From the NCBI RefSeq assembly GCF_023015765.1, contig NZ_JALKAL010000003.1, forward strand, positions 124,001-188,000: a stretch of 64,000 nucleotides of DNA. The letters are read 5' to 3'. Each line of letters begins with the position of its first letter. Position 1 is the stretch's first letter. The stretch is from Ornithinimicrobium sp. F0845. GTDB lineage: Bacteria; Actinomycetota; Actinomycetes; Actinomycetales; Dermatophilaceae. Positions 9,741 through 45,322 of this stretch are shown piece by piece. Made by a program: the position numbers and the translations under genes. The notes beneath the pieces are model-generated. The model saw only the letters and a list, made by a program, of their open reading frames with translations. It was not told the DNA's origin and ran no database searches.

Positions 9741-9933
9741 GACCGAGCGCGTGGGGCGTAGATCTCCGGTCGTGTCGCGACCGCCAGCCCCACCGAGGCG
9801 TCTTCGAGCGCCTTGGTGATCCTCGGGCTGGCTGCAGTCGACCACAAGAACCAGTAGGCGCTCGAAGACGTCAGCCGGGCACTGGTTGTCGCGGGCAGCC
9901 GGCCCGACCGCTTGACACACAGAGAAGCATCGC
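9741..9933 (-). repeat. 3'-flank inverted-repeat element, copy 1
   Basis: The core at 9800-9869 (70 bp) has perfect 13-bp arms GTCTTCGAGCGCC / GGCGCTCGAAGAC around a 44-nt loop holding GACTGCAGCCAGCCCGAGGA. It lies about 120 nt after the stop of the gene at 9991-10350, on the same strand. The flanks also match copy 2: a block around TCTCTGTGTGTC (9906-9933) on one side, and GGTGGGGCTG..GGTC.GCGACACGAC plus ACGCGCTCGGT on the other. No open frame here has a credible start. This element fills the otherwise gene-free stretch 9675-9990. Confidence 0.8.
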
Positions 9934-9990
9934 GTGGGGCGGTGCTCCTGTGGTCCACCGGGCGCGTGGGGGTCGTGGCCAAGTGCTGGC

Positions 9991-10350
9991 TCAGGAGCGG
10001 ATCGGTGCGCGCACCCGCATGGCCTCCAGGAGCAGCTCAGCGCCGCGCAGGGCCGCTCGAAGCCGCAGCCCCTCCTGGGTGAGGGATCCGAGCACGTCCC
10101 CCATCGAGCCCGGTGGCAGGAGGGGCCCGAGGTCGGCACGGACATCGCGCCAGGCCCCCCGCATCGCATCCAGCTCAGCCTGAAGGTGCCGGACGCTGAT
10201 CCAGGCCAGGGCCACCGGGTGCCGACGCCAGGCACGGTAGGCGCGGTAGTCAGCAGGGCACTGGTCGAGCAACCACGAGACTGCTGCCTCCTCCCACCCG
10301 GGCACACCGGTGGGCGGCACTCGCTCTGGCCACCCGGGAGGTCCTGACAT
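9991..10350 (-). CDS. Conserved hypothetical protein next to dxs
   Basis: A 119-aa soluble protein rich in Arg, Leu and Trp, predicted mostly alpha-helical, with no motif I can assign. It has coding-like composition and sits divergently from dxs. I believe small proteins of this kind occur near dxs in other actinomycetes, but I cannot check that here. The ATG is supported by TACACT ending 6 nt upstream, so the transcript is probably leaderless. Confidence 0.6.
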   Translation of the reverse strand: MSGPPGWPERVPPTGVPGWEEAAVSWLLDQCPADYRAYRAWRRHPVALAWISVRHLQAELDAMRGAWRDVRADLGPLLPPGSMGDVLGSLTQEGLRLRAALRGAELLLEAMRVRAPIRS

Positions 10351-10356
10351 AGAACG

Positions 10357-10362
10357 AGTGTA
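10357..10362 (-). promoter_or_regulatory. -10 box of a leaderless promoter
   Basis: TACACT on the minus strand, followed by 6 nt and the ATG at 10350. Confidence 0.55.
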
Positions 10363-10377
10363 CGACCAAGTGTGGGC

Positions 10378-10497
10378 GGCGCGTCCGGTCGGGGTGGGTG
10401 GCGCAAGCCCGGGCGCGTTCGGTCGGGCCTGGGGCGCAGTCCGGCGCGTCCGGTCGGGGTGGGTGGCGCAGCCGGGCGCGCTCGGTCGAGGTGGGGG
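10378..10497 (+). repeat. Four-unit tandem array in the dxs upstream region
   Basis: Units of about 28 bp begin at 10378, 10411, 10443 and 10474, spaced 33, 32 and 31 bp (about three helical turns). Units 1 and 3 are identical (GGCGCGTCCGGTCGGGGTGG followed by GTGGCGCA). Units 2 and 4 are degenerate (GGGCGCG[T/C]TCGGTCG...). The array fills the space between the divergent gene and the dxs promoter, so it could be a multimeric protein-binding site. Confidence 0.7.
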
Positions 10498-10504
10498 AAA
10501 GCCG

Positions 10505-10510
10505 TAGACT
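10505..10510 (+). promoter_or_regulatory. Probable dxs -10 box
   Basis: TAGACT, 37 nt upstream of the dxs GTG and immediately after the repeat array. The -35 region is not recognisable. Confidence 0.4.
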
Positions 10511-10547
10511 CGGTGGCCACGTCCCCGGAGAAAGGCACTGACACATC

Positions 10548-12413
10548 GTGGGTCTGCTCAGCAGCATCTCCGGGCCAGCCGACCTCAGCCGGCTGTCCCC
10601 GGACCAGCTCACCGACCTCGCGGCCGAGATCCGCAGCTATCTGGTCGACTCCGTGTCCCGCACCGGCGGCCACCTGGGGCCCAACCTGGGTGTCGTCGAG
10701 CTGACCATGGCCATCCATCGCGTCTTCGACAGCCCGCGCGACACGGTCGTCTTCGACACCGGGCACCAGTCCTACGTGCACAAGCTGCTCACCGGGCGGC
10801 ACGACTTCGGCACCCTCCGCAAGGAGGGTGGCATCTCCGGTTACCCCAGCCGCGCCGAGTCCCGCCACGACGTCGTCGAGAACAGCCACGCCTCGACCTC
10901 CCTGTCCTGGGCGATCGGCATCGCGACGGGACGCAAGCTCCGGGGCGAGACCGATCGGCATACTGTCGCGGTCATCGGTGACGGGGCGCTCACCGGCGGG
11001 ATGGCGTGGGAGGCCCTCAACAACATCGCCGCCAACCCCGACCTCCCGCTGGTCATCGTCGTCAACGACAACGAGCGCTCCTACGCGCCGACCACCGGCG
11101 GCATGGCCGACTACCTCGCCTCGCTGCGGGCGACCAAGAACTACGAGAACGTCCTGTCCTGGGGCAAGCGGGTGCTGCACAAGACGCCGGTCGTGGGCAG
11201 ACGGACCTACGAGACGCTCCACGGCGTCAAGAAGGGGCTGAAGGACATCGTCAGCCCGCAGGGCATGTTCGAGGACCTGGGCCTGAAGTACCTCGGCCCC
11301 GTCGACGGCCACGACCTGGCGGCGATGGAGACCGCGCTGCGGCGCGCCCACGACTTCGGCGGTGTCGTGCTGGTGCACGCGATCACCGAGAAGGGCCACG
11401 GCTACACGCCCGCCACCAGCGACGAGGCCGACCGGTTCCACGCCGTCGGCGTCATCAACCCCGAGACCGGCCTGCCGCTGGAGCTGTCCGGGCGCTCCTG
11501 GACCGACGAGTTCAGCGACGAGCTGCTCGACCTGGCCGACGAGCGCGAGGACATCGTGGCGCTGACCGCCTCGATGCTGATCCCAGTCGGGCTCTCCGGC
11601 TTCGCCCAGGCCTACCCCGAGCGGGTCTTCGACGTCGGCATCGCCGAGCAGCACGCGGTCACCATGGCCTCCGGCCTGTCCTTCGCGGGGATGCACCCCG
11701 TGGTCGCGATCTATGCGACCTTCCTCAACCGCGCCTTCGACCAGCTGCTGATGGACTGCGCCCTCCACAGGCAGGGCGTCACGTTCGTGCTCGACCGGGC
11801 CGGCGTCACCGGCACCGACGGCGCCAGCCACAACGGCATGTGGGACATGGGCCTGCTCTCGATCGTGCCCGGGCTGCGGCTGGCCGCCCCGCGCGACGGC
11901 GCCCAGATCCGGGTGGCGCTGCGCGAGGCCGTCGCGGTCGAGGACGGCCCGACCGTGCTGCGCTTCCCCAAGGGCAGCGTCGCGGACCCGGTCCAGGCCG
12001 TCGGCGCCCACGGCGACGTCGACATCCTGCGCGAGAGCGAGCACCCCGACCTGCTCCTGGTCTCGGTCGGGGCCATGTCGGGGGTCTCCCTCGCCGTCGC
12101 GGAGAAGCTCGGCGCCCAGGGGATCTCGACCAAGGTCGTCGACCCCCGCTGGGTGCTGCCGGTCAGCGACGACCTGCTCGACCTGGTCGGCCGGTCCCCG
12201 GCGGTGGCCGTCGTGGAGGACAACCTGGTCGACACCGGCATCGGCTCGGCCATCGCCGCCCGGGTCCGCGCGGCCGGCAACCCGGTCCCGGTCTGGACCT
12301 ACGGCATACCGAAGCAGTTCCTCGACCACGGCTCGCGCGGTCAGGTCCTCGAGCGCATCGGACTGACGCCGGACACGATCGCGACCTCGCTCACCGAGCG
12401 CCTGCGCGACTAG
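10548..12413 (+). CDS. dxs: 1-deoxy-D-xylulose-5-phosphate synthase
   Basis: A 621-aa thiamine-diphosphate enzyme joining pyruvate and glyceraldehyde 3-phosphate to form DXP, the entry to the MEP isoprenoid pathway. Visible features are the N-terminal [11 protein letters not shown], the ThDP/Mg motif GDGALTGG...NDN near residues 145-180, and the transketolase pyrimidine domain with [10 protein letters not shown] and the [13 protein letters not shown] stretch. Length is normal. The GTG start lies behind GGAGAAAGG. The stop is followed 5 nt later by the lipid kinase-phosphatase gene, so both are likely co-transcribed. Confidence 0.96.
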
Positions 12414-12418
12414 CACCG

Positions 12419-14428
12419 ATGACCCGGGTCGCCGCGGTGCTCAACCCAGCCGCGGACCGCGCCTGGGCGGCCCAGGCCGAGCTGCACCGAGTATGCCGTG
12501 GGCTGGGCTGGCCGGACCCGCTCGTGCACTACACGACGGTCATCTCGCCCGGGGCCGAGCAGGCGCGCGCCGCGCTCGCCGAGGGGGCCGACCTGGTCGT
12601 CGTCGGCGGGGGTGACGGGACGGTCCGCAACGTCGCCGGGGTGCTGGCCGGCACGGGGGTGCCGCTGGGGATCCTGCCACTGGGCACCGCCAACCTGTTC
12701 GCCCGCAACCTGGGGCTCCCGCGCCACCGGGTGCAGGAGATGGTGCGCGTCGCGCTGCAGGGAGGGGAGCGGGCCGTGGACGTCGGCACGGCGCGCTACG
12801 TGCAGCTGGGGCCGGCCGGTCCGGTGGAGTCCCCGCCGCACCACTTCCTGGTGCTGGTCGGCATCGGGCACGACGCGGCCACGGTGGCCGCCACCCGGCA
12901 GGACCTCAAGCGGTGGGTGCGGTGGCTGGCCTACTTCGAGCCCGGGATCCGCCGGCTCGGCAAGCCGCTGCTGCCGCTCCGGCTCGAGGTCGACGGTGCC
13001 CCGCGGGAGGAGGTGTCCGCCTGGAGCCTGCTCGTCGGCAACTGCGGCCTGATCCCGGCGGGCATCACCGTCGTCGCTGACGCAGAGGTCGACGACGGGG
13101 TGCTGGACCTGGTCCAGGTCGCGCCCCGGACGCTGCTGCACTGGGCGCCGATCGCGCTCAAGGGACTCGTTGGCTTCCGCCGGGACGTGCCGGGCCTGGC
13201 CTACCGCCAGGCCCGCGCGCTCCGGATCTTCAGCGAGACGCCCGTGACCATCCAGGTCGACGGGGACCCGCACCCGGACGTGCTCGAGCTCGACATCTCG
13301 GTGGAGCAGCAGGTCCTGACCGTGCGCTCGCCCCGCTCGGCCCGGGCCGGCCAGGTCGCTCGCCTCATGCGCGGCTGGACCAGACGCGCAGGTGAGGGGC
13401 GGATCCTGCGTGCGCTGCGGCATACTCCCGTGGGGGAGCTGGACGACCTGCTCGGTGAGCTCGACCTGTCGGACCTGGTCCGCTCGATGGACGACCGGGT
13501 GCTCGGACCCGACCACCGCACCGCCCTGCTCGACCTGCTGACCCGGGAGCGGCGGGACGAGCTCTCGGTCCCGACGCTGACGCGGCTCGTGCGCGCGCTG
13601 CACACCGGGCCGACGCCGCGGAGCCACGAGCTGGCGGTCCGCGACATCATCCTCTCCTTGCGAGGCGCGGAGCTGGAGGCGTTCAAGACGCGGACGAATA
13701 CGGTCGGTGGCTACCACGACCTCGACCACCTGGTCTTCGACGACATCGACGATGAGGTGGTGCGCGAGGAGATCCTGGCGCACATCGCCCGGGAGGCAGC
13801 GGGGCTCGAGTCTGAGGACCTGCGCATCCTGTGCGACATCGACGACACGGTGCTGTGCATGCTGCACGACCGGCGCTATCCGCGGGGGACCGTCTATCCG
13901 GGTGCCGTGGCGTTCCTGCACGCTCTGGACCGGGGCGCGGCGCAGAATCCGAGCCGACCCGGCGACCTGACCTTCATCACCGCGCGGCCCAGCGACCCGC
14001 GGGGGCTGGTCGAGAGCTACACCCGCAACGGCCTGGCCGGCCTGGGGCTGCCGCCGCACTCGGTGATGACGGGCCACATCCTCAACCTGGCCACCAAGGG
14101 CCGCATCGCCGAGCGCAAGATGATCAACTTCGACCGGTCCCGGCTGCTGTTCCCGGAGTGCCAGGTGGTCTTCATCGGTGACAACGGTCAGGCGGACGTC
14201 GACGTCGGACGGGCCATGCTGGCGCGGGACCCCGACCACGTGCGGGCCGTGTTCATCCACAACGTGACGGGCGCGGGGGAGGACGTGCGGTCGGCGCTGG
14301 CGGAGGAGGGGATCTGGCTGTTCGACACGTATGACGAGGCCGCGGCCCGGGCGCACGAGCTGGGCCTGATCTCTGCGGAGGGTCTGGCCTCCGTGGGGGC
14401 GGCTGTCGCGGCCGGTTCGCTGCGGTGA
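12419..14428 (+). CDS. Diacylglycerol kinase-like / App1-type phosphatidate phosphatase fusion
   Basis: A 669-aa two-enzyme protein. Residues ~1-300 are a DAGK catalytic domain (GGGDGT at 63-68, LPLGTANLFARNL near 83-95, and a C-terminal beta-sandwich). Residues ~310-440 form a helical, charged linker. From ~465 there is a HAD-type App1 (DUF2183) domain with DIDDT at 473-477, FITARP, a conserved Lys (ATKGRIAERK) and FIGDNGQAD. By family, the first half would phosphorylate a lipid alcohol such as diacylglycerol and the second would dephosphorylate phosphatidate, so the chain may hold opposing activities. No signal peptide is seen. It follows dxs by 5 nt. Confidence 0.85.
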   Translation: MTRVAAVLNPAADRAWAAQAELHRVCRGLGWPDPLVHYTTVISPGAEQARAALAEGADLVVVGGGDGTVRNVAGVLAGTGVPLGILPLGTANLFARNLGLPRHRVQEMVRVALQGGERAVDVGTARYVQLGPAGPVESPPHHFLVLVGIGHDAATVAATRQDLKRWVRWLAYFEPGIRRLGKPLLPLRLEVDGAPREEVSAWSLLVGNCGLIPAGITVVADAEVDDGVLDLVQVAPRTLLHWAPIALKGLVGFRRDVPGLAYRQARALRIFSETPVTIQVDGDPHPDVLELDISVEQQVLTVRSPRSARAGQVARLMRGWTRRAGEGRILRALRHTPVGELDDLLGELDLSDLVRSMDDRVLGPDHRTALLDLLTRERRDELSVPTLTRLVRALHTGPTPRSHELAVRDIILSLRGAELEAFKTRTNTVGGYHDLDHLVFDDIDDEVVREEILAHIAREAAGLESEDLRILCDIDDTVLCMLHDRRYPRGTVYPGAVAFLHALDRGAAQNPSRPGDLTFITARPSDPRGLVESYTRNGLAGLGLPPHSVMTGHILNLATKGRIAERKMINFDRSRLLFPECQVVFIGDNGQADVDVGRAMLARDPDHVRAVFIHNVTGAGEDVRSALAEEGIWLFDTYDEAAARAHELGLISAEGLASVGAAVAAGSLR

Positions 14429-14501
14429 TGGCCGGATCTCGTGGGGAACCTGGATGTCGCTGGAGCGCACGGGGCTGACCCACGAGAACCGGGGCACCCG
14501 G

Positions 14502-15749
14502 TCAGGCGGGCTCCGGCTCGTCCTCGGGCATCTGTGCACGCAGGAACGGCGAGACCGTGGGGATGAGAGCCGCCACGGCCAGGCCGGCCACGCACACCAG
14601 GATGGTCGGTCTGTTGCCGTAGGTGACGGCGAACCACCCGGCCAGGGGCGCAGAGACCGTGATCGTGCCCCAGTTGAGGGAGCGGATCGTGGCGTTCATG
14701 CGTGCGCTGAGCCGGTCGGGCGTGACCGCGTTGCGATAGCTCATCTCCAACGGGCCGCGCAGTCCGTTGCCCACGCCGTAGATCAGCTGGGCCACGACCA
14801 GCACGACAACTCCGGTGCCGCCGGTCGGGGTCAGCGCCGTCATGAGGAAGGCCAACGGTGAGGTCCAGCCGGCCAGGCACACCACGACCCCCAGGCCGAA
14901 CCGCTCGGAGAGCCTCGGTGCCAAACCGGCCCCGATCACCCCGGACACTCCCGCGCTGGCGAGCACGAGGCCGATCGCGACGGGGTCGAGACCGAGCTCC
15001 TGCGAGGCGTAGAACACCAGGATCGTCATCACGGCCGAGTTGAAGAAGAACCAGGTGTGCAGGCCGACGGCGTAGGGCATCAGGGTGCGGTGCCGGTAGA
15101 CCCACCGGGCGCCCTCGACCAGCTCCCGCCCGAGGTGCCGGTCGGCGCGCGGGGCGGGGGCAGGCTCGGTCGTGCGGATGGTGGACAGGACGACGGCTGA
15201 CACGGCATACGTGACGGCGTTGGTGAGGATGGCGATCGGCGCGGACAGGGCCCGGACGAGCACGCCCGCCAGGAGCGGACCGACCGACTCAGCGGCCGTC
15301 ATGGACTGCTCGATGCGGGCGTTGGCACGGGGCAGCTCGACCGTGGGCACGAGCCGCGGCAGGAACGACTGGTGCGCCGCGGTGGCGCTCAGGGAGGCCA
15401 GACCGACGACGAACATCAGCGCGGCGACCAGCGGCACGGTCAGGTCTCCGGTCAGGCCGAGCACGCCGACCGTGCCGAAGGCGACCGCGCAGACCGCGTC
15501 GCCGACGACCAGTACGGGCTGGCGCCGCACCCGGTCGATGAGCACACCGGCGAGCAGCCCGAACAACAGCATCGGCAGCCACTGGGCTGAGCGCACCAGG
15601 CCCAGGTCCGCCTGGTCGGCACCCAGGTCCTGGATGAGCAGCAGCTGCAGGGCCAGGCCGGAGGTGAACAGTCCGAGCCACTTGACGGTGTCCGAGATCC
15701 ACAGGCGGACGAAGGCGGGATAGCTGAACACGCGCGCACCCCTCGCCAT
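14502..15749 (-). CDS. MFS exporter (EntS/MFS_3-like)
   Basis: A 415-aa major facilitator with about 12 hydrophobic segments. It has a cytoplasmic motif-A-like loop (GVLIDRVRRQPVL) and a GPLEMSYRNAVTP motif typical of MFS_3 proteins such as the enterobactin exporter EntS. Substrate is unknown, and a siderophore or drug is possible. The ATG at 15749 is chosen over more upstream starts because the extra residues are not MFS-like. It lies on the opposite strand from the broken lipoprotein genes that follow. Confidence 0.8.
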   Translation of the reverse strand: MARGARVFSYPAFVRLWISDTVKWLGLFTSGLALQLLLIQDLGADQADLGLVRSAQWLPMLLFGLLAGVLIDRVRRQPVLVVGDAVCAVAFGTVGVLGLTGDLTVPLVAALMFVVGLASLSATAAHQSFLPRLVPTVELPRANARIEQSMTAAESVGPLLAGVLVRALSAPIAILTNAVTYAVSAVVLSTIRTTEPAPAPRADRHLGRELVEGARWVYRHRTLMPYAVGLHTWFFFNSAVMTILVFYASQELGLDPVAIGLVLASAGVSGVIGAGLAPRLSERFGLGVVVCLAGWTSPLAFLMTALTPTGGTGVVVLVVAQLIYGVGNGLRGPLEMSYRNAVTPDRLSARMNATIRSLNWGTITVSAPLAGWFAVTYGNRPTILVCVAGLAVAALIPTVSPFLRAQMPEDEPEPA

Positions 15750-15876
15750 GTGCACAGTCAAACAGTTCTGTGGCGGCCCTCGCGACGGATGGTCGGCGTG
15801 CGACACCGGTGTGGGCGGAATGCAACAGGTGCTGCGCCGTTGACGACATAGGTGCGCACCATGTAGACCAGTGGAC

Positions 15877-16483: not shown

Positions 16484-16491
16484 TGCCCCCG

Positions 16492-17151: not shown

Positions 17152-17171
17152 CTCACGTCGGGCCGACCGCG

Positions 17172-18180: not shown

Positions 18181-18337
18181 GTCTCCTCCTTTCCTCTGGG
18201 CCGCAGGCTGCGGCCGATCCGTGCACGGCTGATGCCTTGCCTCAACCAGGCTGGCCGAGGCCTGGGCGCCCCGCAACTGGTTTTCGCCGAGGGGGAGTGC
18301 GGCGACGAGCTGTGTGCGGTTCAGCCTCAGTGACGGC

Positions 18338-20239: not shown

Positions 20240-20283
20240 CCGCGCTCCCTTCCCGTGCCGGGACCACCCGGCAAACGTCTGGC

Positions 20284-20375
20284 GGAGGCGAACGGGAATC
20301 GAACCCGCCAGACCGAGATGCTCGGTCTCACCGGTGTTGAAGACCGGGGGGCCCACCAGGAACCCAGACGCCTCC
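20284..20375 (-). tRNA. selC: tRNA-Sec (UCA anticodon)
   Basis: A 92-nt tRNA with acceptor arms GGAGGCG/CGCCTCC, anticodon stem CCGGT/ACCGG around CTTCAAC (anticodon UCA, plus-strand 20338-20340), a long variable arm AGACCGAG/CTCGGTCT, and a GGGTTCGATTCCC T-arm. The long extra arm and UCA anticodon identify tRNASec. CCA is not encoded. It is charged with serine, and SelA and SelD then convert this to Sec. It sits between selD (divergent) and selB (same strand). Confidence 0.96.
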
Positions 20376-20429: not shown

Positions 20430-20435
20430 GTCGGC

Positions 20436-34198: not shown

Positions 34199-34216
34199 GG
34201 GGTTCGTCGCGCGACG

Positions 34217-34455
34217 CGGTGCTCCTCTGTGTGTCGAGCGGTGGGCTTGGCGAGCACGAACGCGACCTGCTGCGGCGACGGCCACGGCACCCGGCGCCCG
34301 CCCGCCGTCTTCGATCGCCCTTTGGTTCTTGAGGCCGACTGCAGCCAGCCCGAGGATCACGTAGGCGCTCGAAGACGCCTGGGTGGGGCTGACGGTCCGC
34401 GACACGACGCCGGGGCTGACGGTCCGCGACACGACGCGATGCACGCGCTCGGTAG
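34217..34455 (+). repeat. 3'-flank inverted-repeat element, copy 2
   Basis: The core at 34307-34376 has arms GTCTTCGATCGCC / GGCGCTCGAAGAC (one mismatch) and the loop block GACTGCAGCCAGCCCGAGGA. It begins 108 nt after the stop of the phosphatase gene, on its strand. The flanking blocks CTCTGTGTGTC (34217-34242) and ACGCGCTCGGT (34442-34453) match copy 1. A 27-bp tandem duplication (GGGGCTGACGGTCCGCGACA...) occupies 34385-34438. The rest of the 405-bp gap 34199-34604 holds the promoter and operator listed separately; no gene is seen. Confidence 0.8.
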
Positions 34456-34519
34456 GGCGGGCGGCGCGCCACAAGGACGCTCGGGTGTGCGTCGTGACCA
34501 CATCGTGACCTGTGTCGCG

Positions 34520-34604: not shown

Positions 34605-35858
34605 ATGTCCCGCAAGTCCCTCATGGCCCTGTCGGTGGCCGCGGTCCTGGCGCTGGCAGCGTGCGCCCCGTCCGCCTCCGACGACGACAACGGCAACAAC
34701 GACGACGAAACCACCCCCGGCGGCGGCGCGACCGACGACAGCGCGGCCACGGCGGAGGACGCCGGCGGCGGCGAGCCGTTCAAGGTCGGCATCATCTACT
34801 CGGAGACCGGTCCGCTGGCGGCCTACGGTGAGCAGTACAAGGCCGGTCTGGAGGCCGGCATCGACTACGCCACCGACGGCAGCGGCGCCATCGACGGTCG
34901 CGAGATCGAGATCACCTACCGCGACGACACCGGTGTCCCGGACACCGCCGTGGCCGCGGCCAAGGACCTCATCGGCCAGGACTACAAGATCCTGGGCGGC
35001 ACCATCGTCTCCGGCATCGCGGTCGCGATGGCCGAGCAGGCCGAGCAGAACGAGATCCTCTACATCTCCGGGCCGGCCGCCGTCGACGCCCTGACCGGTG
35101 TCAACGACTACACCTTCCGCTCCGGCCGGCAGAGCCTGCAGGACGTCGCCACCGCCGGCGCGTTCCTGGACGGCGAGGGCCAGAAGGTCGTCGTCTTCGC
35201 GCAGGACAACGCGTTCGGGCAGGGCAACCTGGCCGCCGTCGAGGCGGTCCTCGGCGGCGAGGGTGCCGAGGTCTCCAGCGTGCTGGTGCCCGAGGACGCC
35301 ACCGAGTTCACCCCCTTCGCCGCGCAGCTGAAGGAGGCGCAGCCGGACATGATCTTCGTGGCCTGGGCCGGCGCCACCTCCGCCAACATGTGGCAGTCGC
35401 TGGAGCAGCAGGAGGTCTTCGACGTCGCCCCGGTCGTCACCGGTCTGGGTGACTCGGTCACCTTCGACGCCTACGGCCCGGTCGCCGAGAACATCAGCTT
35501 CCTCAACCACTACTTCCCGGGCGCGCCGGACAACGAGATCAACGACGCGATGGTCGAGGCCATCGAGGCGGCCGGCAGCACGCCGGACCTGTTCAGCCCC
35601 GACGGCTTCGTCGCCGGCCAGATGATCGTCCACGCGCTCACCGAGGGTGAGAACGACGTCAACGCGATGATCGACGCGCTCGAGGGCTGGGAGTTCCAGG
35701 GCCCGAAGGGTGACTACACCATCCGCGAGAGCGACCACGCCCTCATCCAGGACATGTACACCGCCAAGCTGGTCGCCGACGGTGACTCCTGGAAGCCCGA
35801 GCTCCTCTCGGTCGTGCCGGGCGCGGACGTCGCACCGCCGGAGGCGTCCGGCAAGTGA
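34605..35858 (+). CDS. Branched-chain-type ABC transporter substrate-binding lipoprotein
   Basis: A 417-aa protein with a lipoprotein signal (LALAAC at ~15-20), a long Asp/Asn/Gly-rich linker to residue ~60, and a Leu/Ile/Val-binding-protein (Peripla_BP_6) fold (FKVGIIYSETGPLAAYGEQ, FVAWAGATSANMW). It would capture the substrate outside the cell for the LivGFHM-type importer that follows. ATG with AAAGGAG 6 nt upstream. The operon context points to a carboxylic acid rather than an amino acid (inference). Confidence 0.88.
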   Translation: MSRKSLMALSVAAVLALAACAPSASDDDNGNNDDETTPGGGATDDSAATAEDAGGGEPFKVGIIYSETGPLAAYGEQYKAGLEAGIDYATDGSGAIDGREIEITYRDDTGVPDTAVAAAKDLIGQDYKILGGTIVSGIAVAMAEQAEQNEILYISGPAAVDALTGVNDYTFRSGRQSLQDVATAGAFLDGEGQKVVVFAQDNAFGQGNLAAVEAVLGGEGAEVSSVLVPEDATEFTPFAAQLKEAQPDMIFVAWAGATSANMWQSLEQQEVFDVAPVVTGLGDSVTFDAYGPVAENISFLNHYFPGAPDNEINDAMVEAIEAAGSTPDLFSPDGFVAGQMIVHALTEGENDVNAMIDALEGWEFQGPKGDYTIRESDHALIQDMYTAKLVADGDSWKPELLSVVPGADVAPPEASGK

Positions 35859-36646
35859 CGGCCCCCCAGCCCACCAGCGCGGGAGCGGCCACCGCCGCTC
35901 CCGCGCTGGAGGTCCGGGACCTGTCCCTGCGCATCGGCGGGGCGCAGATCCTGGAAGACATCAGCTTCACCGTGCCGACCGGTCAGATCGTCGGCGTCAT
36001 CGGTCCCAACGGGGCCGGCAAGACGACGCTGTTCAACCTGGTCTCCGGCGTGATGACACCGACCAGCGGGACCGTGCTGCTGGACGGCCGTGACGTCACC
36101 GGACGCTCGGTCACCCAGCGTGCCGTCGCCGGGCTCGGCCGGACCTTCCAGACGTCCTCGATCTTCCCCGCCCTCTCGGTCGAGGAGAACGTCCGCCTGG
36201 CTGCCCAGGTCGCCGAGGGCCGCGCGCTGTCGCTGCTCACGTTCCCCCGCCGGAACGACCGCGCCAGCAGCCGCGCCCGCGACCTGCTCGGCGAGGTGGG
36301 CCTGGCCCACCGTGGAGCGCACCGGGCCGGTGACCTGCCGCACGGCGACAAGCGCAAGCTGGAGATCGCGATGCTGCTGGCGACCAACCCCTCGGTCGTC
36401 CTCCTCGACGAGCCGATGGCCGGCGTGGCCTCCGGCGACGTCGCCGGGCTGACCGAGGTGATCCGCAGCCTGCACACCGACCACGGGTGCACCGTGCTGA
36501 TGGTCGAGCACCACATGGAGGTCCTGCTCGGCCTCGTCGAGCGCGTCGCCGTGCTCCACTTCGGGCACCTGCTCGCCCTGGACACCCCGGAGGCGGTCAT
36601 GGCCGACCCCACCGTCCAGAGCGCCTACCTGGGAGAGTCAGTATGA
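35855..36646 (+). CDS. Branched-chain-type ABC transporter ATPase (LivG-like)
   Basis: A 263-aa ATPase with Walker A GPNGAGKTT, a LivG-type Q-loop (GRTFQTSSIF), a degenerate signature (LPHGDKRKLEIAML) and Walker B VVLLDEPMAG. Its GTG overlaps the stop of the binding protein gene by 4 nt. It pairs with the LivF-like ATPase to power import. Confidence 0.9.
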   Translation: MTAPQPTSAGAATAAPALEVRDLSLRIGGAQILEDISFTVPTGQIVGVIGPNGAGKTTLFNLVSGVMTPTSGTVLLDGRDVTGRSVTQRAVAGLGRTFQTSSIFPALSVEENVRLAAQVAEGRALSLLTFPRRNDRASSRARDLLGEVGLAHRGAHRAGDLPHGDKRKLEIAMLLATNPSVVLLDEPMAGVASGDVAGLTEVIRSLHTDHGCTVLMVEHHMEVLLGLVERVAVLHFGHLLALDTPEAVMADPTVQSAYLGESV

Positions 36647-38276: not shown

Positions 38277-39496
38277 CCACCATGAACACCAGGGGCACGG
38301 ACGAGACCAGCGCCGAGAAGTCGGTCGAGAAGAAGGTGGACGAGATGCGCACGGCCGCCCGGCCCCCGCTGGACACCGCCCCCGCCGGCGACCTGAGGTC
38401 GCGCGCTCTCGGGCTCATCGTGCCGCTCGGCCTGGTCGTGCTGATGGCCTGCCTGCCGCTGCTCAACCTGTCCCTCCCGGGGGTGCTGCCCGGCGCGACC
38501 TACACACCGGGCACGCTGCACATGCTGGCGCTGGCGATGGTGATGGCCGGTGCCGCGCTCTCCTACCACCTGTTGTTCGGGGTGGCGGGGCTGCTCTCCT
38601 TCGGTCACGCGCTCTACTTCGCGATCGGCGCCTACGGCCTCGGCATCGTCATGGAGCACCTGGAGCTCGGCCTCGTGCCGGCCGCCCTCCTGATCGTGGT
38701 GGCAGCCGTCGTGCTGTCCACGCTGCTCGGCGCGATCTCGTTGCAGGTCACCGGCATCCCCTTCGCCATGGTCACCCTCGCCTTCGCCCAGGCCGGCTTC
38801 GTGCTGGTCCGCAAGGACCCCGGTCGCCTGACCGGCGGCGAGGAGGGCCTGCGGCTGCCCACCGACTACGTGCCGGACTGGCTGGTCGGGGTCGCCGACA
38901 CCCGCAACCTCTACTGGCTCGCGCTGGCCGGGCTCGTGCTGGCGTTCGTCGTCGTCACCTGGGTGCAGCGCAGCCGCGCCGGCCACGTCGCCGAGGCGGT
39001 CCGGGAGAACGAGCTGCGCGTCCAGGTGCTGGGCATGCGCCCGTTCCTGGTCAAGCTGGCGATCTTCGTGGCAGCCTCCGTCATCGCGGCCGCCATGGGC
39101 ATGGTCCACCTGCTGCTGAACTCCGGCGCCGTGCCGCACATCACCAGCGCCGAGTTCACCATCTCGCTGCTGCTGATGGTCGTCCTCGGCGGCGTCGGCT
39201 CCCGCTGGGGCGCGCTCGTGGGCGCGTTCGTCTACGTGATCCTCAGCCAGCGCCTGGCGGTCCTGGCCCAGCTGCCCGCCATCGAGAACCTGCCGGCCGT
39301 GCTGCGGATCCCGCTGTCCGAGCCGATGTTCATCCTCGGCACCATCTTCGTGCTCGTGGTCATGTTCCTGCCCGGCGGTCTGGCCGGGCTGGGTCTGCGG
39401 GTGCGGGCCCTCTTCTCGCGGCGCTCCGCAGCGGACCTCGACGAGCAGGCACGCACCCCCGAGGCCCTGGTGCAGGAGGATGATCAGCAGCGATGA
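38273..39496 (+). CDS. Branched-chain-type ABC transporter permease (LivM-like)
   Basis: A 407-aa permease. The first ~45 residues are a charged cytoplasmic extension (AEKSVEKKVDEMR), longer than usual. The rest has about ten membrane segments with LLFGVAGLLSFGHALYFAIGAY and the loop AEAVRENELRVQVLGM typical of LivM. The C-terminal ~30 residues are acidic. It overlaps both neighbours by 4 nt. Confidence 0.9.
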   Translation: MTTMNTRGTDETSAEKSVEKKVDEMRTAARPPLDTAPAGDLRSRALGLIVPLGLVVLMACLPLLNLSLPGVLPGATYTPGTLHMLALAMVMAGAALSYHLLFGVAGLLSFGHALYFAIGAYGLGIVMEHLELGLVPAALLIVVAAVVLSTLLGAISLQVTGIPFAMVTLAFAQAGFVLVRKDPGRLTGGEEGLRLPTDYVPDWLVGVADTRNLYWLALAGLVLAFVVVTWVQRSRAGHVAEAVRENELRVQVLGMRPFLVKLAIFVAASVIAAAMGMVHLLLNSGAVPHITSAEFTISLLLMVVLGGVGSRWGALVGAFVYVILSQRLAVLAQLPAIENLPAVLRIPLSEPMFILGTIFVLVVMFLPGGLAGLGLRVRALFSRRSAADLDEQARTPEALVQEDDQQR

Positions 39497-41181
39497 CGCC
39501 TCACCAGACCACCACCCACGGCGCCCCGGGACCGCACACCCTGGGGCGCTGGCCCGCCGACCGCGCCCGGCTCCGCCCGGGCCGGGCCGCGATCGTGGAC
39601 CGCGGGGTGGAGCTGACCTACCGCGACCTGGACGAGCGCTCCCGGGCGCTCGCCCAGGCGTGGCGACGTGCCGGCTACCGGCGCGGCGACCGGGTCGCGA
39701 CGCTGGTGGGCAACAGCGCGGAGCACGTGATCGCCTTCTTCTCCTGCGCCCGCGAGGGCCTGGTGCTGGTGCCGCTGTCGTGGCGGCTGACCGCCACCGA
39801 GCTCGCCGACCAGCTCACCCAGGCGGACCCGGCGGTCCTGCTCATCGAGGACGAGACCGAGACCCTGGCCCGCGGCGCCCTGTCGCGCACCGCCGCCCCC
39901 GTCCCCACGGCATACGTCGGTCAGGTCGGTGTGGAGGCCCCCGCCCCCACGCCCTGGCACAGCGGGCACGACCCCGCGCAGTATGCCGAGGGCCGGCTCC
40001 CCGCCGCGGCCGCCGGTCGGGCGGGGCTCCCGCTGGGCGAGGCGGGACCGGTGCAGGACGACGACCCGCTGCTCATGGTCTTCACCTCCGGCAGCTCGGC
40101 CCGGCCCAAGGCGGCGGTGCTCACCCACGCCTCGTGCTTCTGGACCAACCTCTCGCTCTCGCGCACCCTGGAGCTGGACGAGACCGACGTGGTGCTCAGC
40201 GTGCTGCCGCAGTTCCACGTCGGCGGCTGGAACATCCAGCCCCTCCTGGCCTGGTGGATGGGGGCCACGGTCGTGCTCGAGCGGTCCTTCGACCCCGGCC
40301 GTGCCCTCTGCCTGATCGCCGAGCACAAGGTCTCCACGATGATGGGCGTCCCGACGCACTACGCGCGGTTGGCCGAGCACCCGCACTTCGCGCGGACCGA
40401 CCTCAGCTCGTTGCGCAGCGCCGTCGTCGGGGGAGCCCCCATGCCCGCCCCGCTGCTGCGGATCTTCCACGAGCACGGGGTCGCGCTCACCCAGGGCTAC
40501 GGTCTGACCGAGGCGGGCCCCAACGTGCTGTGCGTGCCGCCGCGCGAGGCGATGGAGCGGCTCGGCTGGGCCGGTGTGCCCTACCCCCACGTCGAGGTCC
40601 AGCTCGCGGACCCGGCGACCGGCGAGCACCTGGACGGTCCGGCCACCGGCGAGCTGCTGGTCCGAGGGCCCGGGATGTTCGCCGGCTACTTCCGGGACGA
40701 GGCGGCGACGCGCGCGATCTGGCGGGACGGCTGGCTGGCCACCGGTGACGTGGCGACCCGGGACGAGGCGGGCTACCTGCGGATCGTCGACCGGCTGCGC
40801 AACATCTTCATCACCGGCGGTGAGAACGTCGCCCCGGCCGAGGTCGAGGCCGCCCTGCGCACCCACCCGGCCGTGGAGGACGTGGTGGTCGTCGGCGTGC
40901 CGGACGAGCGCTGGGGCGAGCGCGGCGTCGCCCTGGTGGTGAGGCGCCCCGGCGTGGTAACCGACGCGGCCGAGCTGACCGAGCACTGCCGGGAGCGCCT
41001 GGCCGCCTTCAAGGTGCCGACCGCCGTGCACTTCGTCAGCCAGCTGCCCTACGCAGCGCTCGGCAAGGTGGCCCGTCAGGAGGCGCTCGAGCGCGCCCTG
41101 CGGGCCGAGGAGACGGTGACCACCGACGGCCCGGGAGCCGCGGACCACGGTGCGCACACGACATACGGAGGACGCTCATGA
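39493..41181 (+). CDS. AMP-dependent acyl-CoA synthetase
   Basis: A 562-aa member of the ANL superfamily. The phosphate-binding loop is FTSGSSARPKAAVLTH, followed by YGLTEAGPNV, the hinge GYLRIVDRLRN (motif GDxxxxD..GYL..DR) and the catalytic Lys in ALGKVARQ. It activates a carboxylic acid to the CoA ester with ATP. With 3-hydroxybutyrate dehydrogenase in the same operon, acetoacetate or a 3-hydroxyacid is a sensible substrate, but sequence alone does not settle this. ATGA overlap with the preceding gene. Confidence 0.88.
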   Translation: MTPHQTTTHGAPGPHTLGRWPADRARLRPGRAAIVDRGVELTYRDLDERSRALAQAWRRAGYRRGDRVATLVGNSAEHVIAFFSCAREGLVLVPLSWRLTATELADQLTQADPAVLLIEDETETLARGALSRTAAPVPTAYVGQVGVEAPAPTPWHSGHDPAQYAEGRLPAAAAGRAGLPLGEAGPVQDDDPLLMVFTSGSSARPKAAVLTHASCFWTNLSLSRTLELDETDVVLSVLPQFHVGGWNIQPLLAWWMGATVVLERSFDPGRALCLIAEHKVSTMMGVPTHYARLAEHPHFARTDLSSLRSAVVGGAPMPAPLLRIFHEHGVALTQGYGLTEAGPNVLCVPPREAMERLGWAGVPYPHVEVQLADPATGEHLDGPATGELLVRGPGMFAGYFRDEAATRAIWRDGWLATGDVATRDEAGYLRIVDRLRNIFITGGENVAPAEVEAALRTHPAVEDVVVVGVPDERWGERGVALVVRRPGVVTDAAELTEHCRERLAAFKVPTAVHFVSQLPYAALGKVARQEALERALRAEETVTTDGPGAADHGAHTTYGGRS

Positions 41182-41864
41182 GGACTGGGGGAGTGGCGCA
41201 GCCCGTGGACCGGACCGCCCGCACACCGCGTGGTGCCCGCACCCGCGCCAAGCTGCTGGAGGCCGCCGAGCACGTGTTCGCCACGGTCGGCTACCCCGAG
41301 GCGTCGATCGTCAAGATCACCGAGGAGGCCGGGGTCGCCCTCGGCACCTTCTACACCCACTTCGAGGGCAAGAAGGAGATCTTCGACGAGGTCGTGGACG
41401 ACCTCTCGCACCGTGTGCGGATGGCGATGAGCGAGGCCTCGGCGGGCGTTTCTGACCGGATCGAGGCCGAGCGCGCGGGCTTCCGGGCCTTCTTCGCCTT
41501 CACCGCCGAGCACCCCGCGCTCTACCGCATCATCCGGCAGGCCGAGTTCGTCTCGCCCGAGGCGATGCGCCGGCACTACGACAACATCGTCGACGGCTAC
41601 GCCACCGGGCTCGCGGCGGCGCGGGAACGCGGCGAGATCCGCGACGTGGACCCGGTCGTCGCCGCCTGGGCCCTGATGGGTGCCGGTGAGCTGATCGGCA
41701 TGCGGTGGGTGCTGTGGGAGGACGCGGAGGGGATCCCCGCGCCGGTCTACGAGGGTCTGATGGACGTGATCCAGGGGGCCCTGGCGCCGACCGCACAAAA
41801 CCTCCCCAAAAATGCGCGGGGGGCGGACAAAACCTCCCCAAGAATGGAAGGGACCCAGGCATGA
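41178..41864 (+). CDS. TetR-family transcriptional regulator
   Basis: A 228-aa regulator. The N-terminal TetR helix-turn-helix spans about residues 20-66 (AAEHVFATVGYPEASIVKITEEAGVALGTFYTHF). A ligand-binding helical domain runs to ~205 (FRAFFAFTAEHPALYRII). The last ~22 residues (after GALAPTA) are not TetR-like: they are encoded by the dimeric 52-bp repeat (QNLPKN...DKTSPRM). It lies within the operon and probably controls it through the 34556-34579 palindrome, responding to the transported acid or its CoA ester. Confidence 0.88.
   Translation: MRTGGVAQPVDRTARTPRGARTRAKLLEAAEHVFATVGYPEASIVKITEEAGVALGTFYTHFEGKKEIFDEVVDDLSHRVRMAMSEASAGVSDRIEAERAGFRAFFAFTAEHPALYRIIRQAEFVSPEAMRRHYDNIVDGYATGLAAARERGEIRDVDPVVAAWALMGAGELIGMRWVLWEDAEGIPAPVYEGLMDVIQGALAPTAQNLPKNARGADKTSPRMEGTQA
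41795..41847 (+). repeat. Dimeric 32-bp-period repeat, copy A (3' end of tetR gene)
   Basis: ACAAAACCTCCCCAAAAATG (41795) and ACAAAACCTCCCCAAGAATG (41827) start 32 bp apart with the spacer CGCGGGGGGCGG. The element is in frame and encodes the C-terminal tail of the TetR. Because 32 is not a multiple of 3, the two units are read in different frames (QNLPKN, then KTSPRM). Confidence 0.88.
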
Positions 41865-42595
41865 CGCGCAAGGCAGTGGTCACCGGCGGGGCCAGCGGCA
41901 TCGGTGCCGCGGTCGCCCGGCAGCTCGCGAAGGACGGTCTGCACGTCGTCGTCGCCGACCGGGATGCACCGGCCGCCGAGGCGCTGGCCGCAGAGATCGG
42001 CGGCGAGGCCTGGAGCATCGACCTGTCCGACACGGCGGCTCTGGAGGACCTGCGGCTGGACTGCGACGTGCTGGTGAACAACGCCGGCATCCAGCGGGTG
42101 GCCCCGATCCACGAGTTCGACCCGGCGGACTTCCGGCTCATCCACCGGCTGATGCTGGAGGCGCCCTTCCTGCTGGTCCGGGCCGCCCTGCCGCACATGT
42201 ACGCCCAGGGCTGGGGGCGCGTCATCAACGTGTCGTCCGCGCACGGGCTGCGCGCCTCGGAGTTCAAGGTCGCCTACGTCTCGGCCAAGCACGGCCTGGA
42301 GGGCCTCTCGAAGGTGACCGCCCTGGAGGGTGCCGCGCACGGGGTGACGTCCAACTGCATCAACCCCGGCTACGTCCGGACACCGTTGGTGGAGAAGCAG
42401 ATCGCCGACCAGGCCGCCACGCACGGGATCCCCGAGGACGAGGTGGTCGAGAAGATCATGCTCACCCGGTCGGCGATCAAGAAGCTCATCGACCCCGAGG
42501 ACGTCGGTGCGCTCGCCAGCTTCCTGGCCAGTGACGCCGCGGCCATGGTGAGCGGCACCTCCTACGCGATGGACGGCGGGTGGACGGCACAGTGA
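41861..42595 (+). CDS. 3-hydroxybutyrate dehydrogenase (SDR family)
   Basis: A 244-aa classical short-chain dehydrogenase. TGGASGIG is at 8-15, followed by NNAGIQ, a Ser in VSSAHGL and YVSAK (Tyr-Lys pair). The stretch GVTSNCINPGYVRTPLVEKQI and the C-terminal DGGWTAQ are characteristic of D-3-hydroxybutyrate dehydrogenases, which interconvert 3-hydroxybutyrate and acetoacetate with NAD+. The ATG overlaps the tetR stop. Confidence 0.88.
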   Translation: MTRKAVVTGGASGIGAAVARQLAKDGLHVVVADRDAPAAEALAAEIGGEAWSIDLSDTAALEDLRLDCDVLVNNAGIQRVAPIHEFDPADFRLIHRLMLEAPFLLVRAALPHMYAQGWGRVINVSSAHGLRASEFKVAYVSAKHGLEGLSKVTALEGAAHGVTSNCINPGYVRTPLVEKQIADQAATHGIPEDEVVEKIMLTRSAIKKLIDPEDVGALASFLASDAAAMVSGTSYAMDGGWTAQ

Positions 42596-43521
42596 CCACG
42601 ACAGAGCTCCTCCCGTCGCTGGCCGCGGTCGTCGGCGACCGCTACCGCAGTCACGAGGTCCCCGTCCGCGGCGGCTCCATGCACGTCGGGGTCTGGGAGC
42701 CGGCCGGCGGCGACCCGCAGGCCCCGACCGTGCTGGCGATCCACGGCATCACCGCCTCCCACGTCGCCTGGCCGCTGCTGGCCGAGGCCATGCCCGACGT
42801 GCGGGTCATCGCACCGGACCTGCGGGGCCGCGGGCGTTCCCGCGACCTGCCCCCGCCCTACGGCATGCCGAGCCACGCCGACGACGTCGCGGCCGTCCTG
42901 GACCACCTCGGGGTCGGGCAGGCAGTCGTGGTCGGCCACTCGATGGGCGCGTTCGTGTCCCTGGTGCTGGCGGACCGGCACGCGGAGAAGGTCAGCGACC
43001 TGGTGCTGGTGGACGGCGGGATGCCCCTGCTCCCGGCGCCCGGCGTGCCGCCGGAGGCGCTGGCGCAGGCGATCCTCGGGCCCGCCGCAGAGCGGCTGGC
43101 GATGACCTTCCCGGACCACACGGCATACCGCGAGATGTGGCGCACCCACCCGGCCTTCACCGAGTGGACCGACCTGACCAGCGCCTACGTCGACTACGAC
43201 CTGGTGTCCGAGGACGGCGTGCTGCGCCCCGCGACCCGGGCCGAGGCGCTCGACGAGGACATCCGTGAACTCGTCGACGGCGACTCGCTGGTCCGGGCGC
43301 TGGCGGGCCGCCGGCACCCGGCCGCGTGGCTGATCGCCCCGCGCGGGCTGATGGACGAGGTGCCGCCGCTGTATCCGGAGGCCGCTCGGGAGCGCTGGAC
43401 GGCCGAGCACCCGGACCTCGAGGTGGCGGTGGTCGAGGATGTCAACCACTACACGATCGTCATGCTGCCCCGGGGCATCGCCCAGGTGGTCCCGCACGTG
43501 CGTGCAGCGCTGTCCCGCTGA
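42592..43521 (+). CDS. Alpha/beta hydrolase
   Basis: A 309-aa alpha/beta-hydrolase fold protein with HGITASH (oxyanion-hole region), the nucleophile elbow GHSMGA near residue 115, and a C-terminal catalytic His in EDVNHYTIVM. GTG at 42592 is chosen because it overlaps the SDR stop (GTGA), as at every other junction of this operon; GTG at 42580 is possible. It lacks a signal peptide, so it is cytoplasmic. It could cleave an ester or lactone such as a hydroxybutyrate oligomer. Substrate not proven. Confidence 0.85.
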   Translation: MTTTELLPSLAAVVGDRYRSHEVPVRGGSMHVGVWEPAGGDPQAPTVLAIHGITASHVAWPLLAEAMPDVRVIAPDLRGRGRSRDLPPPYGMPSHADDVAAVLDHLGVGQAVVVGHSMGAFVSLVLADRHAEKVSDLVLVDGGMPLLPAPGVPPEALAQAILGPAAERLAMTFPDHTAYREMWRTHPAFTEWTDLTSAYVDYDLVSEDGVLRPATRAEALDEDIRELVDGDSLVRALAGRRHPAAWLIAPRGLMDEVPPLYPEAARERWTAEHPDLEVAVVEDVNHYTIVMLPRGIAQVVPHVRAALSR

Positions 43522-43527
43522 CGCCGT

Positions 43528-43560
43528 GGTGACGATCCGGTTGCCTCCGGTGACGATCCG
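43528..43560 (+). promoter_or_regulatory. Direct repeats upstream of the VanZ-GH15 gene
   Basis: GGTGACGATCCG occurs at 43528-43539 and again at 43549-43560, 21 bp apart (two helical turns). The pair ends about 12 bp before the expected -35 position of the downstream promoter. This suits an activator or repressor site. Confidence 0.45.
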
Positions 43561-43594
43561 ATAACGAGTCGCGGGTGCTGCGCGTCGGCGCACG

Positions 43595-43600
43595 TAGTGT
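43595..43600 (+). promoter_or_regulatory. -10 box of a leaderless promoter
   Basis: TAGTGT, 6 nt before the GTG at 43607. Confidence 0.55.
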
Positions 43601-43606
43601 GCCTGC

Positions 43607-45229
43607 GTGACCTCCGCAGCCGTGACCCTGCGCGTCGCGGTCGTGGCGGTTCTCGGGTGGTTCGTGGCACTGACGGCGCTGCCGCCCCGCGGCGGCCCGG
43701 TCCGCGGCCTCGGCCGATCCTTCGACCCGCACGTCGACCACCTCCTGTGGCCCTGGACGTGGGGTCAGGCCGACCCTCGGTTGCTGCTGATCGCGCCCAT
43801 GGTCCTGGCGGGGGCGCTGCTCTGCCGACGGGTGGGTTGGCTCGTCGCTGTCGCGGTGCTCCCGGTGCTCGTCGAGGTCTGGCAGTATGCCGTGCCCCAG
43901 GTCGCGCAGGCCGCCTCCGCCCGCGACGTGGTGCACGCCTGGATCGGGCTCGGCGTGGGCGCGCTCCTCGGTCGACTGGTGCTGCTGGCCGCCCGACTGC
44001 TGGCTCGGTCGAGCCGACCCGTGCGGGTGGTGACGCCCGTCCTCACGGTCTGCGTCCTGGCGATGCTGGCAGTGGTGACGCTGCGGCCCGCGGCCGAGCC
44101 CGAGGAGATCGCGGCGGCCGGGGTGCCCGCGCCGCAGGGGGAGCTGCTCGGCGAGGGGTTCCACGAGTCCGACGTGCCCGCGCCGGCGGTGCGGGCGTGG
44201 ATGACGGAGGGGACCCTCCCGGGTGAGGGCACGGCATACGAGGAGATGGCGCGGGTCGCCCTGTGGGACCTGGCCCTGCTGACCCGGGGTCTGGACAAGG
44301 GGCTCCTGCCGGTGGCGGGGCCGGCGGCGAAGTGGGACTACTTCTGGCCGCGGGACGGTGCGTTCGTGGCCGTGGCTCTGGCCCGGTCCGGGCACGCGGA
44401 TGACGCCGTGCGACTGCTGGAGCTGGTCTCCGGCCTCTATCTGGACCCGCTCTACGGCTTCGACGCGCGGTATCTGTCCGACGGCGGGCGCGTGGTCGAG
44501 GACGCCCGCGGTGCGCAGGTGGACGGATGCGGCTGGGTGTTGTGGGCCGTGCACGAGACCGGGCTGGTCACAAACCTGCCCCCGCGGGTGTCCGACCTCC
44601 GGGACCGGTGCACCGATCAGCTGCTGCGCGCCACGGGCGGCGGGTCGCGGCTGGCGGCGGCGAGCCCGGACTACTGGGAGCGGGCCACCTTCGACCGGCT
44701 GCTCGGTGCGAACGCGCCGCTGGCGTCGGGGCTGCGGTCTGCGGCTGCGGACTACGAGGCCGCCGGGTTGCCGGACCGGGCAGCCGTGGTCGGAGCGGCG
44801 GCGGAGAGCTTCCGCGGGGTGTTGGGTGAGTCGTTCGGCCCGGACTTCGAGCGGGGCGGGGACGGCGGCGGACTCGACGCCGCGACCACGATGCTGCTGC
44901 CACCCTTCGACCCTGAACCGCTGCCCGGGGCGCGTGAGGCCTGGCTCGGCTACCAGGAGGGGGCGCTGCGACCGGCCGGCGGTCTGGCGCCGGGCACCGC
45001 GTGGAAGCAGGACGGCGTGAGCTGGACGCCCGAGGTTGCGCTGGTCGCATATACCGCCGCCGCCGACGGGCAGGACGCGATCGCGCGCCACTGGCTGGAC
45101 TGGCTCGACGCGCACCGGGCCCCCTCGGGGTCGCTGCCGGAGAAGGTCGGGCCGGACGGCATGGCCGGCGGCCCAAGCCCGCTCGGCTGGACCAGTGCCC
45201 TGGTGCTGTTGACGCTGGCCGAGCTCTGA
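43607..45229 (+). CDS. VanZ-like membrane domain fused to a GH15 glucoamylase-like domain
   Basis: A 540-aa protein. Residues ~1-160 hold four or five membrane helices with the VanZ signature (VEVWQYAVPQVAQAASARDVVHAWIGLGVGALLG). From ~215 there is an (alpha/alpha)6 domain of GH15 type: KWDYFWPRDGAFVAVALARSG near 240-260 and SLPEKV...PLGWTSALVL near the C-terminus, where the Glu (~511) fits the GH15 catalytic base. It probably acts on an alpha-glucan or surface glycan at the membrane. GTG start supported by the -10 spacing. Confidence 0.75.
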   Translation: MTSAAVTLRVAVVAVLGWFVALTALPPRGGPVRGLGRSFDPHVDHLLWPWTWGQADPRLLLIAPMVLAGALLCRRVGWLVAVAVLPVLVEVWQYAVPQVAQAASARDVVHAWIGLGVGALLGRLVLLAARLLARSSRPVRVVTPVLTVCVLAMLAVVTLRPAAEPEEIAAAGVPAPQGELLGEGFHESDVPAPAVRAWMTEGTLPGEGTAYEEMARVALWDLALLTRGLDKGLLPVAGPAAKWDYFWPRDGAFVAVALARSGHADDAVRLLELVSGLYLDPLYGFDARYLSDGGRVVEDARGAQVDGCGWVLWAVHETGLVTNLPPRVSDLRDRCTDQLLRATGGGSRLAAASPDYWERATFDRLLGANAPLASGLRSAAADYEAAGLPDRAAVVGAAAESFRGVLGESFGPDFERGGDGGGLDAATTMLLPPFDPEPLPGAREAWLGYQEGALRPAGGLAPGTAWKQDGVSWTPEVALVAYTAAADGQDAIARHWLDWLDAHRAPSGSLPEKVGPDGMAGGPSPLGWTSALVLLTLAEL

Positions 45230-45252
45230 CCGGGCGCCCGTTCCTGACTCCC

Positions 45253-45322
45253 GTCTTCGAGCGCCCTCGCGTTCTGAGGGCCGACTGCAACCAGCCCGAG
45301 GAACCGGGAGGCGCTCGAAGAC
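45253..45322 (+). repeat. 3'-flank inverted-repeat element, copy 3 (core only)
   Basis: 70 bp with perfect arms GTCTTCGAGCGCC / GGCGCTCGAAGAC and loop block GACTGCAACCAGCCCGAGGA. It starts 23 nt after the stop of the VanZ-GH15 gene, on the same strand. The outer flanks shared by copies 1 and 2 are absent, which marks the 70-bp core as the unit. It lies between two convergent genes. Confidence 0.8.

Follow-up and report, generated by a model that had tools for sequence, protein, structure and literature searches.

Three copies of a 70-bp element lie in the stretch of DNA analysed here, 64,000 nucleotides of contig C23 of Ornithinimicrobium sp. F0845 (the window). We read them, with a probability of roughly 0.6, as non-autonomous dispersed palindromes of a system resembling a REPtron (after the repetitive extragenic palindromes, REPs, and the REP-associated tyrosine transposase, RAYT), in which the partner is an AbiEi-Vsr-like protein and the partner gene has been lost from the host. 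In related genomes, palindromes of this kind flank a single gene family, the two flanks of one gene match each other, the palindromes diverge together with the protein and are dispersed, and orthologous sites differ in the presence of a palindrome. Binding, cutting and spreading of the palindromes by the nuclease is what we infer.

The palindrome in the window and across the host genome

A preliminary description of this DNA had aligned three 70-bp cores, each with 13-bp arms around a 44-nt loop. The cores and arms are present as described; the loop is not a loop, since it contains an 11-bp inner inverted repeat (GTTCTTCGGGC / GCCCGAGGAAC, consensus) around a 12-bp centre, CGACTGCARCCA, which makes the whole element an imperfect palindrome with the plan 13+5+11+12+11+5+13. 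Each palindrome holds four half-sites, two direct, 19 bp apart, followed by two inverted. The features in the window are:

9800-9869, minus strand: palindrome copy 1 (covariance model E 9.2e-16; 24/35 positions paired)
9860-9867, 9841-9848, 9821-9828, 9802-9809: half-sites of copy 1, in minus-strand order
34307-34376, plus strand: palindrome copy 2 (covariance model E 2.8e-15; 23/35 positions paired)
34309-34316, 34328-34335, 34348-34355, 34367-34374, plus strand: half-sites of copy 2
45253-45322, plus strand: palindrome copy 3 (covariance model E 7.5e-17; 25/35 positions paired)
45255-45262, 45274-45281, 45294-45301, 45313-45320, plus strand: half-sites of copy 3
9741-9935, minus strand: longer repeated flank around copy 1, partly common to copy 2 (about 34215-34460, plus strand); limits approximate

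The additional flank reported for copies 1 and 2 was recovered as 116 nt at 84% identity, pieces of which recur at other copies in the host genome. The distances of 121, 108 and 23 nt from an upstream stop codon hold provided that the open reading frame (ORF) at 9991-10350 is a gene; this 119-aa minus-strand ORF lies between an iron-type binding-protein gene and dxs, and its function is unassigned and its reality uncertain. Copy 3 lies between convergent genes (ends at 45229, plus, and 45333, minus), 23 bp from one and only 10 bp from the other. When the window was scanned for imperfect 70-bp palindromes, scored as paired positions out of 35, a score of at least 24/35 was reached only at copies 1 and 3, and 23/35 at copy 2 and at 35857-35926; in a control of 29 genus loci the scan gave two places at 24/35 or more in 106 kb.

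Further copies were located in the host genome (4.2 Mb, 59 contigs) by pattern search and by a covariance model built from 24 copies. The model found 39 places at E <= 7.4e-5, of which 24 had trained it and therefore have E-values that are favourable by construction; every place was matched on both strands, as expected for a palindrome. The length was exactly 70 bp in 32 of the 39 and 65-72 bp in the remainder. A search of the host genome with the 13-bp arms, allowing one mismatch, added two interrupted copies and a half copy that stops at the centre; it also matched coding DNA, and those matches were inspected in part. The interrupted copies, at C57:34422-34686 (L082:2422-2686) and C57:96840-97104 (L106), are split at the middle by a 191-bp insert, whose ends are inverted (GGGCCTGTTGC...GCAACAGGCCC) and which has TGCA on either side; it seems to be a second miniature element, apparently targeting the palindrome centre.

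All but one of the 39 host copies lie outside called genes, the exception (C12:326024) being within a weakly called gene. Nineteen are found between convergent genes, 16 between tandem genes, three between divergent genes and one at a contig end, as against 4 convergent, 18 tandem and 13 divergent among other gaps in this DNA that are 100 bp or longer. Among the tandem-gene copies nine are oriented with the gene and seven against it, and together with the excess of convergent contexts this indicates that the copies favour 3′ ends without a fixed orientation. The covariance-model search proposed in the preliminary description does not bear out the fixed orientation that it described. Gene calls here, and those used below for the syntenic locus and for genomes G149 and G087, were made with our own codon-usage caller, for which the window was the training set; compared with Pfam in nine frames it agreed at both two-strand places, its called gene at 43607-45229 has no Pfam match, and its weak genes are uncertain.

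Constraint on the copies looks like constraint on DNA rather than on RNA. Host copies showed no excess of compensatory changes (2 cells versus a shuffled mean of 5.8), and, counted on the strand that is transcribed from the gene upstream, mismatches of the G-U type (26) were no more frequent than A-C mismatches (36). An Rfam 15 search of the window at gathering scores gave no match at the palindromes, only a selenocysteine tRNA elsewhere. An RNA element was therefore rejected as the main explanation on the lack of compensatory excess, and the 3′ untranslated-region or small-RNA structure first suggested finds no support in these results or in the 9 to 7 orientation.

A partner gene flanked by palindromes in related genomes

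In the genus relative G023 one gene has a palindrome on each side. The N-terminal part of its product carries an AbiEi_4 domain (PF13338), found at E <= 0.1 in 17/17 aligned homologues, and residues 9-195 match AbiEi models. An AlphaFold model of the protein has a mean predicted local distance difference test score of 90.4. In Foldseek comparisons its N-terminal part matched the AbiEi antitoxin 6y8q (E 9.2e-6) and Rv2827c (E 0.0037), and its C-terminal domain matched, modestly (E 0.007 to 0.07), the catalytic domain of the homing endonuclease I-Bth0305I, Vsr and PvuRts1I (structures 3r3p, 1cw0, 1vsr and 4oky). Residues D245, E256, D258, K262 and E291 are the same in all 17 aligned homologues. 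As judged from these models, the partner is an AbiEi winged-helix protein with a predicted C-terminal Vsr / PD-(D/E)XK nuclease-like fold. The family occurs in 93 of 149 order-level genomes at E <= 1e-15, and the three members scanned had no NCBIfam name.

Palindromes are concentrated beside this gene. Around 30 genus homologues, 28 places scored at least 24/35 within 21 kb beside the gene and none did in the other 95 kb of these loci. Among 16 named loci (mainly Ornithinimicrobium and Serinicoccus, largely overlapping the genomes of the genus scan), 12 have at least one palindrome at 23/35 or more beside the gene. A further 29 order-level loci were scored, 13 of them with palindromes on both sides; apart from L196, where the palindromes of the two sides do not match each other, these both-sided loci span six families (f1, which is the host's own, f2, f3, f7, f9 and f19). 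Overall, 58 of 60 loci were counted, L167 and L201 being omitted at contig ends, and at a threshold of 23/35 they hold 66 palindromes in the 51 kb beside the gene versus 4 in 174.5 kb elsewhere; palindromes stand on both sides at 24 loci and on one side at 17. The homologue of Nocardia niwae (L188) has no palindrome at 23/35, and the reach of the association past the order is therefore unproven.

The two flanks of one gene resemble each other far more than flanks of different loci do, with a median identity of 54.5/70 (range 24-66, 24 loci) versus 25 between loci, and they match in 23 of the 24 both-sided loci. Counted from the centre outward, pairing is lost in the background at 34-38 bases, whether in the 36 flanks from the genus, the 31 from the order or the 32 host copies, so that the length of about 70 bp is no artefact of the scan. 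The 36 genus flanks, trimmed to 70 bp before alignment, align without gaps and have changes on both sides at 32 of 33 pairs; their covariation is 0.688, versus 0.206 when shuffled, a value to which the choice of palindromic sequences for the set itself contributes. Within the arms a sequence recurs directly, exactly 19 bp further on (z 12.4 over 35 palindromes, inflated by counting both arms of each), and 19 bp was the best offset in 17 of the 24 cases that were clear; this gives the four half-sites. For this test and the next, the 35 loci were taken whose palindrome scores at least 24/35. Protein similarity and palindrome similarity rise together (Spearman 0.33; 0 of 2000 permutations as high) across loci of which many are orthologues or paralogues and hence not independent.

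The palindromes that flank the gene are also dispersed. With 19 of them as queries, and a match to any of the 19 accepted, at least 15 of the 19 source genomes had dispersed relatives among the matches listed. G149 has 13 dispersed copies among the matches listed, one of which adjoins another homologue of the partner gene. The 22 dispersed copies examined in G149 and G087 comprise 12 in convergent, 10 in tandem and none in divergent gaps; the nearest stop codon is within 113 nt in all 22, and one copy adjoins another homologue of the nuclease gene. In six gene-bearing genus genomes, the dispersed copies are nearest to the flanks of their own genome in five, a comparison made with selected copies only (7 of 39 for the host genome).

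Variation at orthologous sites and probable loss of the gene from the host

Covariance-model matches at E <= 0.001 were found in 10 of 31 genus genomes, with many in G023, G006, G008, G015 and G004; the sequence of the palindrome varies between these genomes and its length and plan are kept. At the site orthologous to that of copy 3 there is no family member in G023, G006, G015 or G019. The corresponding gap in G023 has an unrelated palindrome-like stretch (23/35 paired), and in G008 a gene-length stretch stands between the two genes; for G010 the comparison covered one side of the site. Together with the number of copies (39) and their position outside called genes in all but one case, this absence from four relatives supports the earlier suggestion of a REP-like mobile unit.

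Presence and absence were also seen in one convergent-gene gap in the genus of G149. Twenty of 30 loci could be read across: five have the same palindrome (the query genome included), 12 have none (counting L275, where the gap is almost gone), and the others have a related palindrome (L287), an unrelated one (L283) or a borderline score of 23/35 (L281). The different palindrome of L283 consists of GTGGCGATAAGTCTGAATTCTCC and its complement, with a degenerate form in L282, and several palindrome families seem to be drawn to this gap.

Near-identical copies in G008 (L058, L067, L070 and L086-L088) lie within a larger repeated unit that extends tens of bases past the 70 bp; rows L088 and L073 of that comparison are one place. 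In L114-L119 the orthologue of the copy 3 gap has short repeats that differ by species, many of them CGCGCTCGGT-like.

The place in the host genome that is syntenic with the gene and flanking palindromes (cassette) of G023 keeps both neighbours, at 94% and 78% DNA identity over matched stretches. It has neither the nuclease gene nor the outer palindrome, other genes lie in between, and a 37-bp half palindrome is found at C57:107485. In G006 the partner gene directly adjoins the same acyltransferase-like neighbour as in the G023 cassette, and in G008 it lies about 8 kb from that neighbour, close to the LuxR-like gene of the region; the names of these neighbours (acyltransferase, F420-type, LuxR-type) are our reading of the sequence, made without a family search. 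The partner gene was probably lost from the host genome, and the missing gene and the half palindrome together suggest that the window copies are orphans.

Two side features of the window lie outside the repeat family. Two 40-bp direct repeats (10377-10481), 65 bp apart and 88% alike, stand just upstream of the 1-deoxyxylulose-5-phosphate synthase gene, and a selenocysteine tRNA gene is found at 20284-20375 (minus; Rfam score 74.8 bits).

Proposed mechanism, rival explanations and known systems

Several observations weigh against the reading that we favour. At the 23/35 threshold, 17 of the 58 partner-gene loci have no palindrome, as do four of the 16 named loci (L174, L175, L180 and L188). 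The host genome and G015 have several palindrome copies each and no close partner gene, and the sole profile-level homologue in the host (C12:153522) has no palindrome beside it. Exact unit ends and target-site duplications could be read neither in the G008 copies nor in the gap compared in the genus of G149. The single dispersed copy of G019 is slightly nearer to the flank of G010 than to its own; in that comparison, a single copy each stands for three of the six genomes. The partly built-in covariation and the relatedness of the loci belong on the same side. Finally, PD-(D/E)XK nucleases by themselves do not join strands, so that a copying route must be assumed.

In the proposed mechanism, the AbiEi-type domain would bind the half-sites as a dimer or tetramer, and the Vsr-like nuclease would nick or cut the palindrome, whether as duplex, cruciform or lagging-strand hairpin. 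Repair or replication might then yield new copies, which would persist where they are least harmful, between the 3′ ends of genes. With the partner gene lost, the orphan copies in the host may serve as terminators in both directions, or may simply persist.

Four other explanations were considered. The palindromes could be operators of an autoregulating AbiEi-type protein, with dispersed copies as regulatory or decoy sites and a nuclease that moves nothing. The palindromes do lie close to the partner gene, and for AbiEi and Rv2827c binding to inverted repeats at the promoter of the protein's own gene is known (PMC7319586). We nevertheless consider such a regulon unlikely: matching palindromes on both sides of the gene at all but one of the 24 both-sided loci are not what it predicts, host copies are seldom in divergent (promoter) gaps (3/38) and lie near 3′ ends, like the 22 in G149 and G087, and neither the presence and absence at an orthologous site nor the larger near-identical units of G008 would be explained. 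A host-serving role, as bidirectional terminators or mRNA-stabilising hairpins spread by some other means beside a coincidental nuclease gene, would suit the 19 of 38 copies between convergent genes and the strong hairpins of the three window copies (gene strand z -4.8 to -5.0, opposite strand z -3.1 to -4.3). It is quite unlikely all the same, since the T run of an intrinsic terminator is absent 3′ of the hairpin at all three window copies, G-U is not above A-C, and it would leave unexplained why palindromes stand on both sides of the genes of one family and diverge together with the protein.

Two further alternatives invoke a classical transposase. An ordinary miniature inverted-repeat transposable element (MITE), formed by back-to-back 35-bp terminal repeats of an insertion sequence (IS) with the nuclease gene as a passenger or domesticated insertion, would account for the palindromic form, the dispersal and the larger units of G008. 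Against this, the arm search, made in the host genome only, found no longer arm-bounded element except the two copies with the 191-bp insert, and the same architecture recurs beside the nuclease gene with unrelated sequences, which makes a MITE improbable. A true REP/RAYT family that has lost its Y1 transposase would fit the layout, which is like that of REPtrons (PMC2817692). The RAYT gene proposed for searching in the preliminary description was not encountered: Y1_Tnp (PF01797) had no match in the host genome, to which the search was confined apart from 14 control genomes, five of which gave matches. The gene flanked in relatives is of another kind, AbiEi plus Vsr-like, and the palindrome is about 70 bp long, set against REPs of 20-40 bp (PMC3733652), so that this explanation is extremely improbable.

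Compared with these, the palindromes and their AbiEi-Vsr-like partner appear to form a system of the repeat-plus-cognate-enzyme kind with a different enzyme, which would be a new class if the nuclease were shown to move the palindromes. We give about even odds to a new class of selfish palindrome, intergenic and built of four half-sites, that is multiplied genome-wide by a free-standing AbiEi-Vsr nuclease independently of HUH, DDE, serine and tyrosine recombinases, and that exists order-wide as many co-diverged enzyme-palindrome pairs. Titles and abstract openings in the open-access literature, a survey that leaves subscription papers mostly outside its scope and does not prove absence, yielded, among the papers listed, none linking AbiEi or DUF559-type nucleases to flanking palindromes. 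The REP/RAYT layout reappears here around an unrelated AbiEi-type DNA-binding protein with a nuclease-like domain, common in this order. If the nuclease spreads its palindrome, a gene family without an NCBIfam name in the members scanned would gain a function, and natural enzyme-site pairs would become available for studying joint change in a DNA-binding domain and its site.

Among known systems, ERIC and NEMIS are palindromic MITEs, which are likewise short and intergenic and frequently lie near the ends of genes; they differ in that the arm search found no parent IS in the host genome and that the partner here is a nuclease-like gene. The C-terminal domain matches, modestly (E 0.008 to 0.07), the catalytic domain of I-Bth0305I, a free-standing homing endonuclease of Vsr fold, and Vsr structures. 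In the present case, unlike that of I-Bth0305I, a short palindrome is dispersed, and the neighbours of the gene in its close form are shared among G023, G006 and G008. The antitoxins of type IV toxin-antitoxin systems of the AbiE kind (AbiEi, Rv2827c) share the N-terminal part, which matches AbiEi models and folds like 6y8q, and their known members bind inverted repeats of 23 bp beside their own genes, two for AbiEi and four for Rv2827c (PMC7319586). The protein described here differs in its additional C-terminal nuclease-like domain, and its palindromes stand on both sides of the gene and are dispersed through the genome. The closest likeness in layout is to REP/RAYT, with a gene flanked by palindromes that are dispersed, intergenic, genome-specific and co-diverging with the gene. 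The enzyme is different, an AbiEi winged helix with a Vsr-like domain in place of the HUH Y1 transposase of RAYT, and so is the repeat, at about 70 bp with four half-sites and tens of copies at most seen here, compared with REPs of 20-40 bp (PMC3733652) that usually exceed 100 copies (PMC2817692). By analogy, then, the system is one that works like a REPtron, yet is no member of REP/RAYT.

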